Origin: Methylobacterium nonmethylotrophicum
GTDB taxonomy: Bacteria > Pseudomonadota > Alphaproteobacteria > Rhizobiales > Beijerinckiaceae
Length of the DNA: 64,000 nt
Assembly (NCBI RefSeq): GCF_004745635.1
Contig: NZ_SRLB01000005.1
Span: 310,001-374,000 of the forward strand
Direction of reading: 5' to 3'
In this document: in pieces, positions 2,463 to 13,283 of the stretch
How positions within the stretch are numbered: position 1 is the first letter of the stretch
Layout of the letters: every line of letters begins with the position of its first letter
Program-made: the position numbers and the translations under genes
The notes under the pieces: generated by a model
What the model saw: the letters and a program-made list of their open reading frames with translations, nothing else
What the model was told of the DNA's origin: nothing
Databases searched by the model: none

Positions 2463-4214
2463 TTGAATCAAGAAGCGCTGAGAGAGGCGATCGAGGGCTC
2501 CCCCTCAGACGTGGACGAAGCGCTTCGCGTCGCGGTCGATCCCAACCTGACCCTGGCCGCCTTCCGCCTGGTGCTTCACGCCTCCCGCGAGAGCTTGCCC
2601 GGACAGCTGCTCGCCTGGATCGAGCAGGCGGGCAAGCTTCAGGCCTTCGCGGCGGCGCTCGGCGCACGGCGCCTGCCGCCCCCGGTGACGGACGATGTCG
2701 AGGACACCCACCTCGACTCCGCGCGCGCCGCCTTCCATTTCGGGTTCCTGGTGAGCGCCCGCTGCCGCATCCGCCGCAACGGAAAGTTCGAGGGAAGCGG
2801 CTGCCTCCTCGGGCCCAGCCTGGTCCTGACGGCCGCGCATGTGCTGACGACGAATCCGGCCATCCTCGAATTCGAGGATGTCGAGGTCGAATTCCAGGAC
2901 GGGTTGAGGGAGTTCGTCGCGCCCAAGCCGCCCGTCTTCGCGTCCGTATCGCCGCACGACCTGTCCGCGCAGGCGCCCAACGGGAGCCCTCACTACGGCA
3001 ACGAGGACGACTTCGCCCTGCTCCGCCTCACGCGTCCGGCCGGTTCGCGCTACGCCAACGTGCCCCTGCCGGCCGCCATCTGGCCCGGATCGGTCGGCGG
3101 CACGATCTTCGTCTGGCATTTCCCGGACGGCGCGGATCACGGGATCGGGTCCGGCAGGCTGGAGGCGATCACCGACCCCGATGCGCGCTGGCGACACGAC
3201 GTCGTGACCGCGCCCGGCTCGTCCGGCGGCGCGTGCTTCAACAACCGGTTCGACCTCATCGGAATCCACCAGGGCCAATGGCCGCCCCAGCGCAGGCTCG
3301 TGCCCCTGTCGCGCTTCGTCGACCGGATTCGCGCCTGCGTCGCGGAGGATCGTGCGCCGCCCTTCCTGTGGTCGCTGACGGGCGATCCGTCCGGACCCCC
3401 GGTCATCGGGCGCGACGACCTGTTCGAGGCCTTCACCCACCTGGTGAAGCCGCGGACCCGGTGGCGGGGACTGCGCGTCCGGCGCCTGCGGCCCGAGGGC
3501 CCGGATACCGGTCTCGGCTTCACGTTCCAGATCCTGCGGGCGCTCGTCGCCCGCAATGCCGGCCAGCACCGGCTTCTCTCCTACGACTGGCCCACCCCGT
3601 TGGGTCCGACCTTCGACCTGCTGGACGACGTCGAAGCCTGGGCGAGGCGGGCCAAGTGGCTCGACGCGGCGGCGGCGGAGACGGGTCTCGACGGCGCGCG
3701 CGCCGGCGAGACCGGCCGGGCGGGTGCTGTCGGCGCGCGGGCGGAGCGCCTGGCGCGCGCGCTCCACGCGAGGGCCGAGGCGGACCGCGTCATCCGCTGG
3801 ATCGTGTTCGACCAGCCCGTCGAGGCTCTCGGAGCCGCCCGGGAGGCGTTGGAAGCCCTGACGGCGGCGATCCTGCCGTGGCCCAGCTTGCGCGTCGTGC
3901 TGATCGGCCTGGAAACCCTCGGCACGCCGGGCAGCGAACTCGGCCTGGCCGCGGCCGCCCGCCAGCCCGATCAGGGACCGGGCAGCTTCCTCACCGAATG
4001 GTTCGGCGAGTTTACCAGAGAGCAAGTCCGGGCGACGCTCAGCCGCGCGGCCGAGGCCTCGGGGCGGGCGAGGTCCGGGGGCGAGATCGCGCAGGCCCTC
4101 GCGGTGACGCTTGAAGGCCTGCCGGCACGCAATACCTTCTCCACGGCCGAGTTGCCGCGCGTGAGCGCCGCGCTGGTCGACCAGGTGCGCCCCTGGTTCG
4201 AGGGAGGACCATGA
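2463..4214 (+). CDS. Trypsin-like serine protease with helical N-terminal adaptor-like region (583 aa)
   Basis: First gene of the cassette. Residues 1-65 are helical and resemble effector-associated (death-like adaptor) domains that couple NTPases to proteases in bacterial conflict systems; this match is by eye. Residues 85-290 form a chymotrypsin-fold protease with an intact triad: His126 in TAAHV, Asp183 in DDFALL, Ser254 in GSSGG. There is no signal peptide, so it should act in the cytoplasm. Residues 300-583 are unassigned; a hydrophobic strand ending in FDQP and another in VVLIGLE look like the core of a P-loop-type fold that lacks Walker motifs. The start is TTG at 2463 with a weak AGG 8 nt upstream. 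The stop overlaps the next start as ATGA, implying translational coupling with the NTPase. Confidence 0.85.
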   Translation: MNQEALREAIEGSPSDVDEALRVAVDPNLTLAAFRLVLHASRESLPGQLLAWIEQAGKLQAFAAALGARRLPPPVTDDVEDTHLDSARAAFHFGFLVSARCRIRRNGKFEGSGCLLGPSLVLTAAHVLTTNPAILEFEDVEVEFQDGLREFVAPKPPVFASVSPHDLSAQAPNGSPHYGNEDDFALLRLTRPAGSRYANVPLPAAIWPGSVGGTIFVWHFPDGADHGIGSGRLEAITDPDARWRHDVVTAPGSSGGACFNNRFDLIGIHQGQWPPQRRLVPLSRFVDRIRACVAEDRAPPFLWSLTGDPSGPPVIGRDDLFEAFTHLVKPRTRWRGLRVRRLRPEGPDTGLGFTFQILRALVARNAGQHRLLSYDWPTPLGPTFDLLDDVEAWARRAKWLDAAAAETGLDGARAGETGRAGAVGARAERLARALHARAEADRVIRWIVFDQPVEALGAAREALEALTAAILPWPSLRVVLIGLETLGTPGSELGLAAAARQPDQGPGSFLTEWFGEFTREQVRATLSRAAEASGRARSGGEIAQALAVTLEGLPARNTFSTAELPRVSAALVDQVRPWFEGGP

Positions 4215-7200
4215 TGTCCGGCGGTCCTGGTCAGCCCGAGAGAGCGGGGCCGGGCACGACGCCCGGCGGGATCGACGGCCGGGTCGACCGCGCACGTCGC
4301 TTCGCGGCCCTGTCGGTGAGCTACGATCCGGAAAAGGCCCTGGAGATCGCCGGCGTGTCAGGCCTGTCCGACCGGCTCTCGGTGGCCGGAGCGCTCTCGG
4401 TCGAGTCGGACACCGACCAGGCCGATGGCCGCTGGCGCCTCAGGCCGCCGGCGCGCGCGCGCATCCTTCAGGCGCTCAAGGAAGCGGGCGCGCTGGATCA
4501 GGCGCTCGCCGAACGCGAGACGCAACCGGACTACACCGACGCCGCCGATCTCTGCCACGCCCTGGCCGGGCGGGACGTCTACGCCGAGGACAGCATCGCC
4601 CGCCTCGTCGGCGCGGTCGCGGCCGATGCCGGAGCGCTCCAGCGCGCCGCGTCGACCCTGGCCCTGGCCGGGCCGGCCGCGCCGGCGGCCGACCGGCTTC
4701 CGGCGCTCCAGCTTGCCGCCTCGGCGGCCGAGGAGCAGCGGCCCGATCCGCTGCTCCGGCACGGCATCGTCGGGCGGGAACCGGAGCTCGCCCGGATCCT
4801 GGCCCATTGCCGGGCGGCCTGGACGGGCGGGCCGCAGGCGCTCTTCATCGGCGGCGTCGGCGGGGTGGGCAAGTCCACGATCCTGGCCGAAACCGTCCGC
4901 CGCCTCAAGCCGGACGCGCCCCTGGTCGTGTCGCTGGACTTCGATCGGCCGAGCCTGGACGGACTGGACGTCGTCGGCCTCTCCCTCGAGACCGCGCGCC
5001 AGCTCTCCGTGGCTCTCGGGGCGCGGGCCGCGCCGCTGCGCGAGGCGCGCCTCAAGGCCGCGGGCGCACAATCGGGCCTGGTCAAGGCGGAGCGTCGAAC
5101 CCCGCCGACCGCCCTTCTCCAGGAGGTCGGCCGCCTCGTGCAGGCGAGCGGTCGTCCCGTCCTCGTCATCCTGGACACCGTCGAGGTGCTCGCGGCGCGC
5201 GGCGACTCGCACCCGCTCGCCGTGTTCGAGTTCCTCGGCGCGTGCCGTGACGCCGGCGTCGTTCCGCTGGCGATCCTGGCAGCCGGGCGCGGCGATGTCC
5301 CGGCGCTGATCCGCGACCGGGTCGAGGCGCTGCCTCCGCTGACCGGCCTGGACGAGCGGTCGGCGTCGGACCTCGTCCAGCGGCTGGACGTCCCCTCCCC
5401 GGCCCGTCCGGCCCTGCTCGCGCTGGCGCGCGGCAACCCGCTCGTGCTGCGGCTCGGGGCCCGCCTCGTCGCGGAGGCCGGCCCGGGAGCGCTCGACGAG
5501 AGCGGTCTGGCGGGTCACGCCTCGGAGCGGATCGTCGCGGGCCAGCTCTATCGCCTCGTCCTGTCGCGCCTGAGCGATCCGGAGCTGCGCGCCATCGCCC
5601 ATCCCGGGCTGCTGCTCCGCCGGCTCAATGCGGGGCTGATCCGCGAGGTGCTCGCGCCCGAACTCGGCCTGGGCCCGATGACGGAGCCCCGCGCGGCCGA
5701 ACTCCTCGACGAGCTCCGGCGGCACGCCTGGCTGGTCGAGGAGGCCGGAGGATGGGTCTCCCACCGCTCCGATCTGCGCGAGGTGATGCTGCCCCTGCAG
5801 CTCGCGGCCGATCCCGTGCGGGCCAGGCGGCTCAACCGGCTCGCCGCCGCCTGGTTCGACCGTCTGCCGGAGCCGTGGGCGCCGCGCGAAGCGCTCTATC
5901 ACCGGCTCCAGGCCGTCCGGTCCGGAGGGCGCCTGCCGCCGATCGACCCTGCCGTGGCCGAGCAGTTCGACGACGCGATGCTGGCCGACCTCGGCCAGCG
6001 CCCGCGCGACGCCGTGCTTCTCGCCCGCGGCGGGCGCAGCAGCTTCGGGCGGGCCGGGACGAAGGCCGCCCCGACCGCGGGATCGACCCTGCGCGCCGCC
6101 TCCGAGCTCCGCTCGCTCCTCGATCAGGGCGAGGTGTCGGAAGCGGCCGGGCTGGCCAGCCGCACCGTCGCGGAGGAGACCGTCGACCCGCTGTCGTCGG
6201 AGGCCGACGTGCTGATCGAGGCCTTCTGGCGCATCGGCGACTGGGCGCGGGCGCGCCGGCTGCTGCGCAGGAGGGACCAGGCCGCGCCCTCCTGGCCCCT
6301 CCCCCCCGTCGATTCGCATGCACTGGCCCAGATGCAGCTTCGGGCCGAGTTCACACCCGACGCCGTCCGGATCTGGCTCGCACGCCACCGGGACGAGGCC
6401 GCGCGGCTGGCCCGGCTCGTCCCGCACAGCCGGGAGCGGACGTTCGGCGGTCCGCTCGCCTTCCTGCTGCTGGCCGCGGGGGCCGAGGCGCCGCAGACGG
6501 AGGAGGCGGCCATCTGGTCCGTCTGGACGGATGACGCGCGCAGGCAGGCCGATTTCCCCCGCCTGCTCTCCCGCAAGCTCGACCTGGTGCAACGCGAGGC
6601 CAAGCTGCCGCCCGACACGGCCGCGCTCGCGGAGACGCTGATCGCGCAGGCCGAGCGCGAGGGCGGACCGCCCCGCGCGCTGGCCGGCCGCGGGCGAGAC
6701 CTCATGGTCCGGCTCCTCGCCGTCGGATCGCCCTACGCCCAGATCGCCGGCGAGCGGTGGCGGGCGAGCGAGCGGCACCACCTGCAGGACCGCCTCGCCG
6801 CCATCGCCGCGCTCTTCACCGACGGCATCCTGGACGGGGATCCGGACAACCCGGACCCGTCGGCCGGCCCGGACCCGCCGGCCGGGCCGTTCGCGGCCGA
6901 GCGGCTCGACGCGAGAGGCCGCCTGTCCGAGTGGCTGGGCGCGCTGGCCTTCTATCTTCCCGATGCCGACAACCGGCTGCTGGCCAGGGCGGCCGAGCGG
7001 CGCCGGCGCAGCGCGGCGGGCGCCTGGGCGTATGGACGGGCGCCGAAGCCCTGGCGCCCGCGCGCGCTCGACGCAACCCAGGAGCGGCGGCTCGACGCGC
7101 TGCTGGGAGGCGCCGCGCCCGAACGGCGGGCGCTGGAGCGCCTGCGGGCGTGGGGCGACCTGCTGCCCGGCAAGGAGGATCCGGCGCAGCGGGTGCTGCA

Positions 7201-7381
7201 CCGGTTGGAGAGCCTCCTGGGGACGGTCGGTCAGCCGTTGTTCGGATCCCGGCGGGAGCGGGCCCTGGCGGTCGCGGCCGGGCTCGCGAGAGCAGGGGCG
7301 CCGGTCGCGCTGCTGCCGGAACTGGCGATCCACCTGACCGGCAACGGAGCCTCGGCGGGGCCCGGTCCGGGCGCTTCCTGA
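4211..7381 (+). CDS. STAND-type P-loop NTPase (1056 aa)
   Basis: A large ATPase of the kind that acts as a switch and scaffold in bacterial defence and signalling. The N-terminal 190 residues include a possible winged-helix segment. A P-loop GGVGGVGKST lies at residues 214-223 (Lys221) and a Walker B strand ending VLVILDTVE has Asp322. A winged-helix-like section follows, then a long alpha-helical arginine/alanine-rich C-terminal half (about 430-1056) resembling a TPR/superhelical sensor. There is no membrane segment. The start ATG at 4211 overlaps the stop of the upstream protease gene and has GGAGG just before it; the next gene follows after 38 nt. STAND membership comes from domain order and motifs; a profile search would settle the exact clade. 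The trigger it senses is unknown. Confidence 0.82.
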   Translation: MMSGGPGQPERAGPGTTPGGIDGRVDRARRFAALSVSYDPEKALEIAGVSGLSDRLSVAGALSVESDTDQADGRWRLRPPARARILQALKEAGALDQALAERETQPDYTDAADLCHALAGRDVYAEDSIARLVGAVAADAGALQRAASTLALAGPAAPAADRLPALQLAASAAEEQRPDPLLRHGIVGREPELARILAHCRAAWTGGPQALFIGGVGGVGKSTILAETVRRLKPDAPLVVSLDFDRPSLDGLDVVGLSLETARQLSVALGARAAPLREARLKAAGAQSGLVKAERRTPPTALLQEVGRLVQASGRPVLVILDTVEVLAARGDSHPLAVFEFLGACRDAGVVPLAILAAGRGDVPALIRDRVEALPPLTGLDERSASDLVQRLDVPSPARPALLALARGNPLVLRLGARLVAEAGPGALDESGLAGHASERIVAGQLYRLVLSRLSDPELRAIAHPGLLLRRLNAGLIREVLAPELGLGPMTEPRAAELLDELRRHAWLVEEAGGWVSHRSDLREVMLPLQLAADPVRARRLNRLAAAWFDRLPEPWAPREALYHRLQAVRSGGRLPPIDPAVAEQFDDAMLADLGQRPRDAVLLARGGRSSFGRAGTKAAPTAGSTLRAASELRSLLDQGEVSEAAGLASRTVAEETVDPLSSEADVLIEAFWRIGDWARARRLLRRRDQAAPSWPLPPVDSHALAQMQLRAEFTPDAVRIWLARHRDEAARLARLVPHSRERTFGGPLAFLLLAAGAEAPQTEEAAIWSVWTDDARRQADFPRLLSRKLDLVQREAKLPPDTAALAETLIAQAEREGGPPRALAGRGRDLMVRLLAVGSPYAQIAGERWRASERHHLQDRLAAIAALFTDGILDGDPDNPDPSAGPDPPAGPFAAERLDARGRLSEWLGALAFYLPDADNRLLARAAERRRRSAAGAWAYGRAPKPWRPRALDATQERRLDALLGGAAPERRALERLRAWGDLLPGKEDPAQRVLHRLESLLGTVGQPLFGSRRERALAVAAGLARAGAPVALLPELAIHLTGNGASAGPGPGAS

Positions 7382-7419: not shown

Positions 7420-10143
7420 GTGGCCGACCATGACTCTCACGAAGAGGCGCGCGGACGCCTCGAGTCCCTGTTCAGCGGGATTCCCGGCGCCCGCGAGGCG
7501 GTCGCGGAGGCGATCGCCAGCGGGCAGATCGACCCCACCCGCTTCCGGGTGAACCAGGCCGATCTCGGCACGAGGCTGGAGCACGTCGGCAATCCGCTCG
7601 GCCTCGAAGCCATCATCAGGCGGGTCGTCCGGCCCCCGATGCTGATCCGGAACGACCGGGTGGAGTTCGTGCCCGTTCCCAAATTCCCGGAACTGACGGA
7701 GGCGCATGTGCGGCGCGTCGAGCGCTTCATCCCGTCCGTCGGCCGCGTCGAGTTCGTCAACCACAGCATGCGCTGGGGCGGCACCGGCTTCGTGATCGAC
7801 GGGGCAGGGCGCGGCCGCCGGCGCGTGGTGACCAACCGCCACGTGGCCAAGCTCGTGGCCCGGCGCGGCCGCACGGGAGCGGGCGTATTCCTGCGCTCGC
7901 CGATCGGCATGCCCTACCGGGCCAAGCTCGACATGCGCGAGGAGGTCGACTCGAAGCCCGGCACCGCCTTCGAGCTTCCGGTCAGCACCATCGTGTACCT
8001 CGCCGACGACACCGAGGCCGACGTCGCGCTGCTCGAGATCGAGGTCAACGACCGCCTCGCGCCCGATCCGATCCCGCTCGCCGGCCGGCGGGCGAACGAC
8101 GCCGAGCTGGTCGCGACGGTGGGCTACCCGGCCTTCGACGACCGGAACGACCTGGCCGAGATGCGCGAGTATTTCCAGGACCTCTTCGACGTCAAGCGGT
8201 TCGCGCCCGGCCTGGTGATGACGAGCGGGGCCGGCACGGTCCTGTCGCATGACTGCACGACGCTCGGCGGCAACTCGGGCTCCTGCCTGATCAGCCTTGA
8301 GCAGGAGGGCGTCGTCGGGCTGCATTTCTCCGGCGAGTTCGGGGTGGAGAACGCTGCCGTCAGCGTGGAGACGCTGAAGCGGCTCCTCGCCTCGGGCTCG
8401 CTGGTCGCGCTGCCCGGCGCGGCCGCGCCGGCCGACGTCGAGTCGCGCTCCGACGGCGAGCACGACGCGGACGACCTCAAGGATCGCGGCGGGTACGATC
8501 CGGACTTCCTGGGCGAGGGACTGGCGGTGCCCTGGCCCGACCTCGACGCCGGGATCGGCGACGACCTCGCGCAGCCGTCGGACGCCCTGCCCGGCCGCCC
8601 CTACGAGCTTCGCTACACCCATTTCGGCGTGCTGTTCTCGAAGAGCCGGCGCTCGCCGCGCGTGACCGCCGTCAACATCGACGGGGAGGAGAGCGTCCGC
8701 ATCAAGCGCCGCGACGACCGCTGGTTCTACGACCTGCGCATCCCGCGCGAGCTGCAGCTCGGCCAGAACGCCTACGAGGACCCGGACATCGACCGCGGCC
8801 ACATGGTCCGGCGCGAGGACCCGAACTGGGGCGACGACGCCCAGCAGGCGAACGACGACACCTTCCACTACACCAACTCGGCCTTGCAGCATTCGAGCCT
8901 GAACCAGGGCAAGACGCTCTGGCAGGGGCTCGAGAACTACATCCTCGACAGTTCCCGGACCAAAGGGTTCAAGGCCTGCGTCTTCACCGGCCCGGTGTTC
9001 GACGACGAGGATCCCGAGCTCCCGCCCAGCAACGCCCAGGTCCCGCAGGAATTCTGGAAGATCGTCGCGATGCCGGCGGAAGGCGGCGGCCTGCATGCGA
9101 CGGCCTACCTGCTCAGCCAGGGCGATCTGATCCGCCGCCTCCTCCTCAAGCGGAGCCGGAACGAGGCCGCCGAAGGCTTCGTGCTCGGGCCCTACCGCAC
9201 GTTCCAGGTCGCGATCACGCATATCGAGGAGGTCACGGGGCTCTCGTTCCCGGCCCTGCGCGGCGCCGATCCGCTCAGCCGCACGCTGCGGGCCCAGGAA
9301 GCCCTGGCGGACGGCCGTCCGGCCTACATCCCCCTCGAGAGCGCGGAGGACCTGGTCCTCGCCGCGGCCGGCGAGACGGCGCCGGGCGACGCCGGAGAGG
9401 CCGGGAGCGAGGACGAAGCGCTCGCGGAGGTCGCGTCCAGGGTCGCGCAATTCCCGCCCCCGACCCTGCTGCAGCGCCTCGTCGAGCTGCAGGACGGTAC
9501 GGGCGACCCGGGGCAGGCCGCGGAGGTCGGCGAGCTTCTGCGCGCCTACCAGGCCGCCGTCGCGTCGTACCCGTCGAGGGAGGAGGGACCGGCCCCGAGC
9601 TATGCCAGCCTGAAGCCGGACTACGAAACCCTGTTCGCGTCGTGCCAGGTCCGGCCGGAGCGGGCCGGCGAAGTGGCCTGGCACGTCAAGAAGCTGCGCG
9701 CCTACCAGGCACGCTACGAGGCCGTCGGAGACAAGCTCGGCATCCCCTGGTGGTTCGTGGGCATCACCCACGCCCTCGAGGGCAGCTTCAACTTCAACGG
9801 GCATCTCCATAACGGCGATCCGCTGACCGCCCGCACCGTCCAGATTCCCAAGGGCCGGCCGAAGGTCTGGAACCCGCCCAACGACTGGGAGTCGAGCGCC
9901 GTCGATGCCCTGACCATGAAGGGCTATGCGGGCCAGGAGGATTGGTCGGTTCCCCGGGCGCTCTACCGGTTCGAGGCGTATAACGGCTGGGGGTACCGCG
10001 GCCGGGGCGTGCACACGCCGTACCTGTGGAGCTTCTCCACCCACTACACCCGAGGCAAGTTCGTGAAGGACAAGGTCTACGACGCGAACGCGGTCTCCAA
10101 GCAATGCGGCGCCGCGGTGATGCTGAAGGCGCTCGGGGTGTAG
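7420..10143 (+). CDS. Trypsin-like protease + NUC-family endonuclease + lysozyme-like fusion (907 aa)
   Basis: Three hydrolase modules in one chain. Residues 105-325 are a trypsin-fold protease with His141 (TNRHV), Asp201 (EADVALL) and Ser286 (GGNSGS). Residues 395-640 are a DNA/RNA non-specific (EndoG/NUC type) nuclease: DRGH at 458-461 with the general-base His461, and the metal-binding pattern Asn486, Gln490, Asn495 followed by W..LE. Residues 740-907 match a lysozyme-like module seen in phage and bacterial wall-lytic proteins, with candidate catalytic Glu787 in HALEGSFNF and a later SPYLWS-like stretch. There is no signal peptide or membrane anchor despite a wall-active domain. The start is GTG at 7420, 7 nt after GGAGGG. 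The frame stays open upstream into the NTPase gene, but that stretch has no coding character. Confidence 0.85.
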   Translation: MADHDSHEEARGRLESLFSGIPGAREAVAEAIASGQIDPTRFRVNQADLGTRLEHVGNPLGLEAIIRRVVRPPMLIRNDRVEFVPVPKFPELTEAHVRRVERFIPSVGRVEFVNHSMRWGGTGFVIDGAGRGRRRVVTNRHVAKLVARRGRTGAGVFLRSPIGMPYRAKLDMREEVDSKPGTAFELPVSTIVYLADDTEADVALLEIEVNDRLAPDPIPLAGRRANDAELVATVGYPAFDDRNDLAEMREYFQDLFDVKRFAPGLVMTSGAGTVLSHDCTTLGGNSGSCLISLEQEGVVGLHFSGEFGVENAAVSVETLKRLLASGSLVALPGAAAPADVESRSDGEHDADDLKDRGGYDPDFLGEGLAVPWPDLDAGIGDDLAQPSDALPGRPYELRYTHFGVLFSKSRRSPRVTAVNIDGEESVRIKRRDDRWFYDLRIPRELQLGQNAYEDPDIDRGHMVRREDPNWGDDAQQANDDTFHYTNSALQHSSLNQGKTLWQGLENYILDSSRTKGFKACVFTGPVFDDEDPELPPSNAQVPQEFWKIVAMPAEGGGLHATAYLLSQGDLIRRLLLKRSRNEAAEGFVLGPYRTFQVAITHIEEVTGLSFPALRGADPLSRTLRAQEALADGRPAYIPLESAEDLVLAAAGETAPGDAGEAGSEDEALAEVASRVAQFPPPTLLQRLVELQDGTGDPGQAAEVGELLRAYQAAVASYPSREEGPAPSYASLKPDYETLFASCQVRPERAGEVAWHVKKLRAYQARYEAVGDKLGIPWWFVGITHALEGSFNFNGHLHNGDPLTARTVQIPKGRPKVWNPPNDWESSAVDALTMKGYAGQEDWSVPRALYRFEAYNGWGYRGRGVHTPYLWSFSTHYTRGKFVKDKVYDANAVSKQCGAAVMLKALGV

Positions 10144-10349: not shown

Positions 10350-12062
10350 ATGGCCGGGCAAGCGAAGCCGGATGAGACGACCGACGGCGAGGATGGATCC
10401 GGGGACGCCTCCGGGACGCCGGCCCAGGCCGCCGATGGGGGCGCCGAGGGCGGACCGGGCGTGACGCCGGTGAGCGGCGAGACGACGATCGACGAGAAGA
10501 TGGATTTCGAGGTTGTCGCCCTGACCCTCGACGCCGTCCGGAGGATCGCGGGCGTGATCGCGGATCGCGTGAAGGCGAAGGTCGGCCGGATCGAACCGCC
10601 GGCCCCGGTCGTCCTCGCCGACGAGTCGCTCGTCTCCCGGATGGCCGAGTGGCAGGTGATCGCGGCCCGCATCGGGGCGGTCGAGGAGGGCATCGAGGCC
10701 CTGCTGCTGCCGGTGGAGCCACCGGATGCGCACGAGGAGGGGCTGGTCGCGAGCCTGGGCCAGGCGACCTCGGCGGTCGAGGCCGTCGCCAAGCTGCTGT
10801 CCTTCTTCAAGGCCGAGGCCCGCTACAGCGGCCGGACTGTGGAGCTTCCGGCTGCCGCCCTGTATCCCGCCCTCGCAGGCCGGCTCGCCGAGGCGGGCAT
10901 CGAACCGGTTCTGGTCGAGGCGGCCCGGCCGCTCGGTGCCGGCGCCGCGACGGGGCGCGACCTGATCGGTCGTCTGGAACGCCTGCTGCGCCTGCGCGAG
11001 CAGCTCGCGGCCTTCCTGCCCGATGCCGACGAAGCGGGAGCGGACAGGGACGGTGGCGACGCGAAGGCGGGCCAGGCGGAGGGCGCCGAACCGAACCCGG
11101 ACGACCCGGAGCGGGAGGCGCGGCAGCGCGGCGTCACCCGCATCACGTCGCTGATCGGCGCCGTGGACGCCATCATGACGGACCTCGGCAGCGGCGCGGA
11201 GGGCGGGCACCGCATCGCGCAGATCCAGGCGGCGAGCGCCGTGACCTGCCTCGTCCAGGACGCGCCCGCCGCTTACCTGCTGAGCGCGCAGATCATCAAG
11301 GCGGGCGGTCATTACCGTATCCGGAAACACCTCTTCACGACCTTGTTCACCGGGGACCAGCTCTACTACGGCGGCGGCGCCGCGATCAGCTTCACGCTGA
11401 CCGATCTCAAGCGACTGCGCGTGGTGCTCGGCGACGTGCTCCATCACGCGAGCGGCAATGTCCGGGCCCCGTGGGGATCCGTGGGCGGCCGCCTGAGCAA
11501 CCTGAGAGAGCCGTGCACACCGTCGCCCCTCCAGCCCGTCGCCGTTCCCGACGAGCCTCTCGTCACGCCGAATACCGGCGATGACGAGAAGGCCGACCCG
11601 GAACAGCCGGGACGATTCCTCGCGGAGGGCCTCCGGCACGCCGCCTGGCGGGAGGCCAAGGCCCTCGTCACGCTCCGTGCCCAGGTCAACGCCATGGCAC
11701 CCGGCCGCAGCAAGGCGAGCGACGGGACGATCGGCGACGCCGCGCACCAGAGCCGGGACTCGGACCACAATCCCTGGGTGATCGACGACGGGACAGGCGT
11801 CGTGACGGCGCTCGACATCACCAACGACCCGCGCCACGGATGCAGCGCAGACGCCATCGCCGAAGCGATCCGCCGCAGCCGCGATCCGCGCGTGAAGTAC
11901 ATCATCTGGAACAGGCGCATCGCGAGCTCCACCGCCATCGGCCGGTTTCCGGCTTGGGCGTGGCGGCGCTACACCGGCGACAACCCGCACACCAAGCACG
12001 TCCACATCTCGGTGAAGGCGGACAAGGTCGCTTACGACTCAGACCGAGCATGGAGCCTGTAG
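10350..12062 (+). CDS. Protein with unknown helical N-terminus and C-terminal M15-like DD-peptidase domain (570 aa)
   Basis: Last gene of the cassette, 206 nt after the triple fusion. Residues 1-50 are acidic and low in complexity; residues 60-380 are helical and of unknown family, with a conserved-looking block around FTGDQLYYGGGAAISF. Residues 425-570 resemble peptidoglycan DD-/LD-carboxypeptidase (M15-like) domains of phage endolysins: His466 and His473 in AHQSRDSDH, Asp489 in TALDI, and an HxH (His550, His552) near the end, which together would bind zinc. No secretion signal is visible. ATG 10350 was chosen because GGGAGAG sits about 6 nt upstream; the frame is open to 10272. The wall-hydrolase domain matches the theme of the preceding fusion protein. 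Its N-terminal function is not recognised. Confidence 0.72.
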   Translation: MAGQAKPDETTDGEDGSGDASGTPAQAADGGAEGGPGVTPVSGETTIDEKMDFEVVALTLDAVRRIAGVIADRVKAKVGRIEPPAPVVLADESLVSRMAEWQVIAARIGAVEEGIEALLLPVEPPDAHEEGLVASLGQATSAVEAVAKLLSFFKAEARYSGRTVELPAAALYPALAGRLAEAGIEPVLVEAARPLGAGAATGRDLIGRLERLLRLREQLAAFLPDADEAGADRDGGDAKAGQAEGAEPNPDDPEREARQRGVTRITSLIGAVDAIMTDLGSGAEGGHRIAQIQAASAVTCLVQDAPAAYLLSAQIIKAGGHYRIRKHLFTTLFTGDQLYYGGGAAISFTLTDLKRLRVVLGDVLHHASGNVRAPWGSVGGRLSNLREPCTPSPLQPVAVPDEPLVTPNTGDDEKADPEQPGRFLAEGLRHAAWREAKALVTLRAQVNAMAPGRSKASDGTIGDAAHQSRDSDHNPWVIDDGTGVVTALDITNDPRHGCSADAIAEAIRRSRDPRVKYIIWNRRIASSTAIGRFPAWAWRRYTGDNPHTKHVHISVKADKVAYDSDRAWSL

Positions 12063-12188: not shown

Positions 12189-13010
12189 AGAGGCTATCCC
12201 ACTCGGGCGTGTCGCCATGCGACGATGGCAGCTGCGCAGTGGAGCAGGGCGAGGGCGTTCTGCCGCGTCTTGGACCAGCGGATCGGCAAGGCGCGGAAGC
12301 GGTTGACCCAGGAATGGCAGCGCTCCACCACCCAGCGCCTCGCCCGCTTGCCGCATTCGCGCGTCTCGACGATCTCCTCTCCGCGTCGCCGGAGATGCAG
12401 TTCGACGCCGTACTCGCCGGCTGTTTCGCGTGGGCCGGTGTCATCATCGCCCTTCTCCAGGCACAGGTGCTGCGGATCCCAGGCGCTCGGATCAGGCCGG
12501 GAGACCGGGATCGCCTCCAGCGTCTCGCGCGGCAGCAGGTGATCGTCGACGTTGGCGCCGGCGATCACCAGCCCCACCGGCACCCCGCGCCCGTCGGTAG
12601 ACAACCCCTCCCAGTCGATCCCCACCAAGGCGTCGTGGGCCAAACGCCCCTCGCGCCAGAACGCCTCGAACACGCCGGCTTTCGTCCGTTCCTGGAAGCG
12701 GCGGTGGGCCGAGGACGAGGTGCAGATCCCTGTGGCGTTGAGCGCGTTCCACTGGCATCCGGTGCGCAGCACGACGATCGCGTCCATCGCCGCCCGATCG
12801 GGCACCCGCGGATCGTGGCACCCGAGCGGATGGCGCGGACGGGACGGCAGCAGCGGCTCCATCCGCATCCAGAGAGCGTCGGCGATACGCCAGCTGTCGT
12901 CCGCCATCGCAGGACGCCGGCCAGCTTGGCTCTTGAGCGTCGGCATCCTCAAGAGGTGCGAAACCCGAGCCGAGATGCCACCCCCAACCTTCCCTACCGG
13001 GATGGCCTCT
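12189..13010. mobile_element. Decayed IS5-family insertion sequence remnant
   Basis: Bounded by imperfect terminal inverted repeats: AGAGGCTATCCC at 12189-12200 and its complement GGGATGGCCTCT at 12999-13010 (11 of 12 match). The span of about 820 bp and the single minus-strand transposase frame fit the IS5 family. I see no clear target duplication, so the outer limits may be off by a few bases. It sits 126 nt after the protease/NTPase cassette. Confidence 0.7.
12194..12907 (-). pseudogene. IS5-family transposase with internal deletion
   Basis: The frame reads through as 237 residues. The N-terminal DUF4096-like part (DALWMRMEPLLP, then RAAMDAIVVLRTGCQW) and the C-terminal end (KRARRWVVERCHSW, then IVAWRH) are typical of IS5 transposases. 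In the middle, DWEG is joined directly to LSTDGRGVP. In intact relatives I remember, about 30 residues lie here, including the first catalytic Asp (in a WLAMDG-like motif). The DDE triad is therefore incomplete and the enzyme should be dead, although no frameshift is present. An alternative start ATG lies at 12946. The stop falls inside the left terminal repeat. Confidence 0.78.
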
Positions 13011-13049
13011 AAGCGAAGACAGGGACGCGGCACCGTGCGATACGGACCC

Positions 13050-13283
13050 ATGCCTGCAAAGAAGCCGAAACAGACCGCCTTCACCGTCGCCGTCTCGGCC
13101 GCCGACGACGGGGCCAGCCCCCCGGCCACCCGGGTCTACGTCGCCATGGCGGCCGATCCCCTGGCGGCCGTCGCCGCCGTGCAGGCGGTGGCGCCGGAGG
13201 CGGCGGTGGAGTTGAGCGGCACTCTCTCCGACCGCCTCGCCGCCCGATTGAGGCTGCGTCCGGGCGAGGTGCGGCCGATCTGA
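13050..13283 (+). CDS. Small hypothetical protein (77 aa)
   Basis: A lysine-rich start (MPAKKPKQ) is followed by an alanine-rich sequence with a regular strand/helix pattern and a C-terminal arginine-rich end. ATG at 13050 is 40 nt beyond the IS remnant. Ribosome-site support is poor. I cannot name a family. Coding is plausible from codon use, but a spurious frame in GC-rich DNA is possible. Confidence 0.45.
   Translation: MPAKKPKQTAFTVAVSAADDGASPPATRVYVAMAADPLAAVAAVQAVAPEAAVELSGTLSDRLAARLRLRPGEVRPI

Follow-up and report, generated by a model that had tools for sequence, protein, structure and literature searches.

The gene cluster described here lies in a stretch of 64,000 nucleotides from Methylobacterium nonmethylotrophicum (RefSeq assembly GCF_004745635.1, contig NZ_SRLB01000005.1, positions 310,001 to 374,000 of the forward strand), which is called the window. 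It consists of four genes that are listed in Table 1 together with their domains. The third gene encodes P0001, a protein that joins a trypsin-like protease and a nuclease to a C-terminal domain called lysozyme-like, and that is a candidate effector of a predicted immune system. A preliminary description of this DNA had dealt with P0001 but overlooked the genes beside it, among them gene 4 with a second probable wall enzyme.

Table 1. Genes and domains of the cluster, with their positions in the window.
Feature	Position	Strand	Content and support
Gene 1 (P0003)	2463..4214	+	583 residues; trypsin-like peptidase (Trypsin_2, E 9.6e-13), C-terminal part of about 280 residues without known family
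Gene 2 (P0004)	4211..7381	+	1056 residues; AAA_16/STAND-type ATPase (AAA_16, E 1.8e-13), long C-terminal part
Gene 3 (P0001)	7420..10143	+	907 residues; N-terminal part, HtrA-like trypsin, Endonuclease_NS, linker, lysozyme-like domain
Trypsin_2 domain, residues 121-301 of P0001	7780..8322	+	Pfam E 2.3e-12; His141, Asp201, Ser286
Endonuclease_NS domain, residues 381-611 of P0001	8560..9252	+	Pfam E 1.2e-45; DRGH at 458-461
Linker, residues 658-724 of P0001	9391..9591	+	Matched by the segment that joins the VldE-like to the lysozyme-like domain in two-domain proteins
Lysozyme-like domain, residues 725-905 of P0001	9592..10134	+	His784, Glu787, Asn798, Gly799 invariant in 172 rows
Gene 4 (P0006)	10350..12062	+	N-terminal helical part, predicted C-terminal VldE-like zinc L,D-endopeptidase domain; ATG at 10350 with GGGAGA ahead
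VldE-like domain, residues 455-596 of P0006	11634..12059	+	His499, Asp515, His573, His576, His578
Transposase, IS4/5 family	12194..13129	-	Directly downstream of gene 4; DUF4096, E 1.4e-16

Domains of the trypsin–nuclease protein

The gene of P0001 is genuine. It forms a single open frame that starts with GTG and is preceded by a purine-rich stretch that resembles a Shine–Dalgarno sequence. The GC content at third codon positions is 0.87, a value obtained from a longer frame that begins upstream. The protease triad shows no variation in the eight rows of an alignment of P0001 with seven trypsin–nuclease relatives, and a Foldseek search with the predicted structure of P0001, which is poor overall, gives DegS/HtrA proteases as best matches (E 1.1e-07). 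The nuclease is matched to EndoG by phmmer (E 5.4e-06), and its DRGH motif, which is followed by Asn486, Gln490, Asn495 and Glu505, is retained in seven of the same eight rows. EndoG is a mitochondrial and NucA an exported nuclease. Both have the Endonuclease_NS domain with DRGH in common with P0001, in which this domain sits between the protease and the probable wall domain. In the relative encoded by a plasmid of Paracoccus sp. MA (L017:8887-10863) the trypsin triad is kept and DRGH is gone, and this nuclease looks dead.

As the preliminary description stated, P0001 appears to have no secretion signal: neither a signal peptide nor a membrane helix is seen by hydropathy, the highest Kyte–Doolittle mean over 19 residues being 1.33. 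By the same method no export signals are seen in P0003, P0004, P0006 and ten two-domain wall proteins that are described below. PADLOC returns partial matches only, i.e., 'nacht' on residues 211-320 of P0001 and 'LmuA' on residues 101-190 of P0003, both over the trypsin parts, and NCBIfam gives no match among the six proteins scanned.

The C-terminal domain of P0001 is real and widespread, as scans with a four-copy alignment yielded 249 genomic and 99 viral stretches encoding a relative; the best 80 of the 249 and the best 80 of the 99 were kept as loci. Glu787 is unchanged in every one of the 172 rows aligned (five or more of these rows duplicate a locus that is already represented), and Thr806, Pro810 and other residues are likewise unvarying, besides those in Table 1. 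These invariant residues fit an enzyme. No Pfam family covers the domain, and a profile search against the PDB gives no match, a radial spoke protein at E 6.2 being a chance hit. In profile–profile comparisons with SLT (19 rows), Muramidase (2), GH24 (15) and GH108 (13), for which shallow alignments were built from the genomes of the relatives with frames chosen by script, all probabilities stay below 5%, about the level of five unrelated controls. A structure model made from a 12-row alignment of the whole chain has a mean predicted local distance difference test score (pLDDT) of 48.5. Its lysozyme-like part is helical and mostly of low confidence, and the Foldseek matches listed for the model contain proteases only and no lysozyme.

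The triple fusion and the three intact active sites that the preliminary description had proposed are thus upheld in part. Trypsin and nuclease are recognized by Pfam, clearly above the cut-off, and the expected residues are in place at all three sites (the triad in eight of eight rows, DRGH with Asn486, Gln490 and Asn495, and Glu787 in every row), whereas the lysozyme identity of residues 740-907 is backed by no family, profile or PDB match. The prediction of the 907-residue chain, which had been suggested as a check, gives the same division: it recovers the DegS/HtrA fold, but leaves residues 740-907 helical, mostly of low confidence and without a lysozyme among the matches listed. The domain is called lysozyme-like here, and a role in cutting the wall is probable. 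Among the proteins that have this domain without a VldE-like partner, 62 of 152 were scanned (35 bacterial and 27 viral); three match Peptidase_M15_3, three match PG_binding_1, and PHROGs endolysin families match few of them, at most three each, be it over this domain or over another part of the protein.

The VldE-like domain and the two-domain wall protein

No Pfam family matches P0006, whose longest frame begins at GTG 10272. When the model of its last 140 residues is compared with known structures, the catalytic domain of VldE takes rank 1 in Foldseek (E 7.4e-04) and is matched by VIA with a Z of 10.9 and a root-mean-square deviation of 2.8 over 108 aligned residues. On this model, the C-terminus of gene 4 is of the VldE fold. 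The pLDDT lies mostly between 91 and 98, and falls to 58-77 at residues 481-500, the stretch with His499. VldE (Spr1875) is a cell-wall remodelling enzyme of Streptococcus pneumoniae, an L,D-endopeptidase acting on peptidoglycan, in which H301, D308 and H375 are reported to bind zinc, H370 and H373 are catalytic and Asp372 is required for activity (PMC11667670). His573, His576 and His578 of P0006 align with H370, H373 and H375, while His499 and Asp515 are assigned to H301 and D308 from motif and order alone. None of the five varies in the 26 rows aligned. With VldE the domain would share the fold, the His/Asp/His ligands and the two further histidines. Arg495 is invariant in the same rows as well, at a spacing unlike that of Arg294 in VldE. 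In contrast to the pneumococcal enzyme as it is described there, P0006 shows no export signal by hydropathy and stands in an immune-type context.

The remainder of P0006 is less widespread. Its N-terminal part of about 350 residues (window:10350-11600), which is predicted to be helical with low confidence, has a relative only in Sinorhizobium meliloti among the sequences examined. VIA matches for this part (Z up to 6.9) were disregarded, as helical bundles commonly give values of this order.

The VldE-like and the lysozyme-like domain are found in one chain at ten loci, i.e., nine of the 80 genomic loci and a plasmid of Caulobacter rhizosphaerae, in frames of 404 to 558 codons from stop to stop. 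A profile of these two-domain proteins matches residues 658-905 of P0001 (profile 151-392 of 395), starting at contig base 319391, which is residue 658, and separately matches the end of gene 4 (profile 2-148), overrunning the stop by a few residues. The window therefore holds both halves, parted at the linker: the front half forms the end of gene 4, and the back half, with the linker, the end of the trypsin–nuclease. The same parted arrangement is present on plasmid pCpl of S. meliloti. A database search for the exact domain order of P0001 had been advised, and it is on this plasmid that the full three-domain order recurs, in a protein with 62% identity over 94%; P0006 and its S. meliloti counterpart share 40.8% over 86%.

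In a tree of the lysozyme-like domain, from which viral rows, second copies (L001, L026-L029) and the L032 protein were left out, the last because its domain is parted over two frames, the window and S. meliloti are sisters with support 99/94. Both lie inside a set of 36 rows (support 86/90) that contains seven of the nine two-domain rows and 27 other rows, and two Caulobacter proteins fall outside this set. With this support, these 27 other rows and the position of the Caulobacter proteins, the tree does not establish that the pairing arose only once, nor does it settle whether the one-chain or the parted arrangement came first.

In the fetched flanks, relatives of the trypsin, nuclease or ATPase occur at nine of nine two-domain genomic loci and at none of 71 loci with the lysozyme-like domain only (Fisher p 4e-12), counted with hidden Markov models that were grown from the window genes on the very loci then counted. 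Among loci of at least 15 kb, the figures are 9/9 and 0/53. More distant proteases would have been missed in both groups, because the models derive from the window's own genes. That the wall is the target is supported indirectly, as the lysozyme-like domain travels with a predicted L,D-endopeptidase.

Two further observations concern the two-domain proteins. The one of Rhodopseudomonas rhenobacensis (L032:7541-8977) is split over two frames, and sequencing error and decay are not distinguished here. In addition, those of L022, L031-L035 and L038 have acidic, probably disordered N-termini, several of which contain, by eye, a motif resembling D-x-H-x-D-P that could be a docking or cleavage site.

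Distribution, locus content and related systems

A long trypsin–nuclease protein is present at eight examined loci, including the window, L015 and L034; these loci were found through the trypsin–nuclease protein or the lysozyme-like domain themselves. The order trypsin, ATPase, trypsin–nuclease is found in six of them, namely the window, Paraburkholderia (L016), Paracoccus (L017), Rhodopseudomonas (L032), Sphingobium (L035) and Caulobacter (L043), and not in L015 and L034. In the Paraburkholderia locus, TcmP genes lie a few kb upstream and CBASS genes about 7 kb downstream, behind transposases. The Novosphingobium locus (L034) contains an EAD1-trypsin, and an S8 peptidase is present in L017 and L015. 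Downstream in the S. meliloti locus are a weak alpha/beta-hydrolase match, a PAS/GAF protein, a CHAT protein and an S8 peptidase. In Sphingobium sp. AS12, the two-domain wall protein is directly followed by a trypsin fused to a phospholipase-D-like domain (L037:10486-13359, PLDc_2 E 1.8e-24), which suggests that the killer part is exchangeable. A genome of the same genus as that of the window (G008) has a locus (L030:7513-19738) with a trypsin–nuclease, three more trypsin-type genes and an ATPase, and without the lysozyme-like domain.

Within the sample searched, the system is rare. Of 385 genomes from the class, scanned with a small number of candidates scored in each, 25 match the trypsin–nuclease profile in some way, and only the genome of the window has it at full length in one piece; in G008 the profile is matched in two pieces of one frame. 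The profile of the two-domain wall protein is matched in two of the 385: in two pieces in the window's genome, and in its lysozyme-like part alone in one other. Of 122 plasmid records, 30 were listed, and 11 of these were examined.

The cluster appears to belong, by its composition, to the NucA-trypsin conflict systems, 'System 3' of Kaur et al. (2020). In that computational study, these systems are reported mostly from alphaproteobacteria, with trypsin and NucA either fused or separate. They are accompanied by STAND NTPases, by S8 peptidases and, in part of the systems, by lysozyme-like and papain-like effectors that are linked to EAD1 and directed at peptidoglycan; a proteolytic cascade is proposed, EAD1 is placed on the trypsin paralogue in a subset of systems only, and in certain operons a STAND NTPase is fused to a Death-like domain and trypsin (PMC7159879). 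As in those systems, the window has an Endonuclease_NS domain fused to a trypsin, more than one trypsin gene (P0001, P0003) and a STAND-type ATPase. It differs in that the lysozyme-like domain is joined directly to the trypsin–nuclease, in that the STAND ATPase and the trypsin are separate genes (P0004, P0003), and in that the partner wall enzyme is a predicted VldE-like zinc peptidase; the lysozyme domain of Kaur et al. may or may not be the same as the one in P0001. EAD1 is not found by Pfam in P0001, P0003 or P0004, while the same Pfam model matches in L034, nor is it found in the window's genome, in a scan whose own controls matched nowhere. Altogether, the cluster looks like a rearranged version of the predicted NucA-trypsin immune system. 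The term 'NucA-trypsin' is used, among the matches listed, only in PMC7159879 and PMC8195603. So far as the literature searches reach, the direct fusion of trypsin, nuclease and lysozyme-like domain, the VldE-like partner and the re-sorting of two wall domains are new.

Protease activation of a nuclease has been shown for Hachiman and AVAST (Tuck et al., 2025). The same study describes gated pairs in Lamassu and DRT as well, in which, as in the window, a trypsin-like protease is paired with an immune nuclease (PMC12799240). Their nuclease, however, is of the metallo-beta-lactamase type and encoded by a separate gene, whereas that of the window is of the Endonuclease_NS family and fused, together with wall domains.

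Proposed working, alternatives and neighbouring genes

P0001 probably acts as the executioner in an immune (conflict) system that works inside the cell, is driven by proteases and leads to abortive cell death, with nucleic acid and wall destroyed. An abortive role had been suggested in the preliminary description from the attack on both targets by one chain. It gains from the trypsin–ATPase pair that precedes the trypsin–nuclease in six loci, from the TcmP and CBASS genes in the Paraburkholderia region and from the NucA-trypsin make-up, the facts from which we infer the role itself. In the proposed working, the STAND-type ATPase (gene 2) would, as its class implies, sense an invader or damage and oligomerise, upon which the partner trypsin (gene 1) would be switched on. 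This protease or the HtrA-like domain of P0001 may then cut the linkers flanking the nuclease, freeing it and the lysozyme-like domain. The nuclease is expected from its family to destroy nucleic acid, and the lysozyme-like domain and the VldE-like L,D-endopeptidase of gene 4 would cut peptidoglycan once the inner membrane has been breached. The cell would die or burst before the phage is ready. By analogy, it is plausible that the protease serves as a self-releasing inhibitor or a timer, as had been proposed. Access to the wall might be given by the phage's own holin, by membrane-damaging partners or by prior cell death through the nuclease. Candidates for such partners, the phospholipase-D-like domain of L037 and the possible lipase of S. 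meliloti, are seen at those loci and not in the window.

A more far-reaching version is put forward tentatively, as a possibility with less in its favour than the executioner role itself. It holds that the cluster is an immune lysis programme, in which a protease-triggered precursor would free in the cytoplasm a nuclease and a matched pair of hydrolases, one cutting glycan and the other L,D-bonds of the stem peptide, so that the infected cell is demolished before the phage matures. The wall pair would come as one protein or two, and its killer partner may vary between Endonuclease_NS and, at a single locus, a phospholipase-D-like domain. The natural re-sorting of the domains, which form one protein in ten loci and two here, with one half fused to the nuclease, argues for one process in which protease, nuclease and the two wall domains all take part. 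Most immune effectors known from bacteria are directed at nucleic acids, NAD, membranes or proteins. If the proposal is true, a conserved module of two wall-cutting enzymes, controlled by trypsins and a STAND-type ATPase, would act as a cell-autonomous effector of lysis. The re-sorting also yields a compact set of four genes that lends itself to testing. The lysozyme effector, to which one sentence is given in the 2020 survey (PMC7159879), would become a defined module whose partner is assigned on structural grounds.

Several points weigh against the executioner role. A lysozyme fold of residues 725-905 could not be shown by PDB profile, family profiles or structure model. The Asp372 of VldE is without a counterpart in P0006, where Lys575 stands instead, and the site varies among relatives. 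The nuclease motif has been lost in the Paracoccus relative, and the trypsin–ATPase pair is absent from the S. meliloti stretch that was fetched. As gene 4 begins 206 bases past gene 3 (128 with its longest frame), co-transcription of the two is not certain. No route to the periplasm for the wall enzymes is seen in the window. Finally, the literature searched contains no phage-defence assay of the system.

The missing export signals could also be accounted for if the proteins act after lysis, the freed protease, nuclease and wall enzymes clearing phage DNA and debris or attacking neighbours without killing the producer. A nuclease and wall enzymes are possibly useful outside the cell, but the conserved STAND-type ATPase and the pair of proteases suggest a switch that is triggered inside the cell, and we regard action after lysis as unlikely, though the most serious of the alternatives. 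The unproven lysozyme fold and the missing Asp372 would both fit a reading in which the C-terminal domain of P0001 and the VldE-like domain do not cut at all but sense peptidoglycan or muropeptides, by which the system would detect wall damage inflicted by a phage. The conservation of the VldE-like zinc ligands and the two catalytic histidines in all 26 rows and of Glu787 in all 172 speaks for cutting, and makes a sensor role an unlikely one too. Nuclease and peptidoglycan hydrolase domains are common parts of toxins, and a toxin exported to other bacteria by a secretion or contractile-injection machine would need no signal peptide. Pfam finds no delivery adaptor domain in P0001, however, and its company consists of trypsins and a STAND-type ATPase instead; immunity and delivery genes elsewhere were not sought. 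Export of this kind is considered improbable.

Least probable is a prophage lysis cassette, which is close to the lytic release role that the preliminary description had named beside abortive infection. Both wall domains are common in viral contigs, with 99 relatives of the lysozyme-like and 128 of the VldE-like domain, and a 'peptidoglycan-binding protein' of a Bradyrhizobium phage matches the former; all its neighbours are labelled 'hypothetical protein', a holin being neither shown nor excluded. The combination found in the window, however, was not recovered from viruses. In a pattern-based scan of viral contigs, none of 22 candidate stretches was confirmed as a relative of the trypsin–nuclease, four phage records match the nuclease part only or the lysozyme-like part only, and trypsin, nuclease, ATPase and VldE-like relatives are absent, at E <1e-8, from all 80 viral loci that were retained for the lysozyme-like domain. 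Of ten proteins scanned downstream in the window, none is a phage protein by Pfam and one is a transposase. A lytic release role is not borne out by these results.

With regard to the neighbouring genes on which the executioner role leans, genes 1 and 2 overlap by 4 bases. P0004 contains, by eye, GGVGKST at 217 and VLVILD at 317, which we take to be a Walker A and a Walker B-like motif, respectively. Inside the ATPase gene, on the opposite strand, ARAGORN predicts a tRNA-Val (window 5080-5176, minus strand), which is probably false. Outside the system, at window:24296-29675, a transglutaminase, a circularly permuted ATP-grasp protein, RadC and a weak match to a proteasome subunit are encoded in a row.

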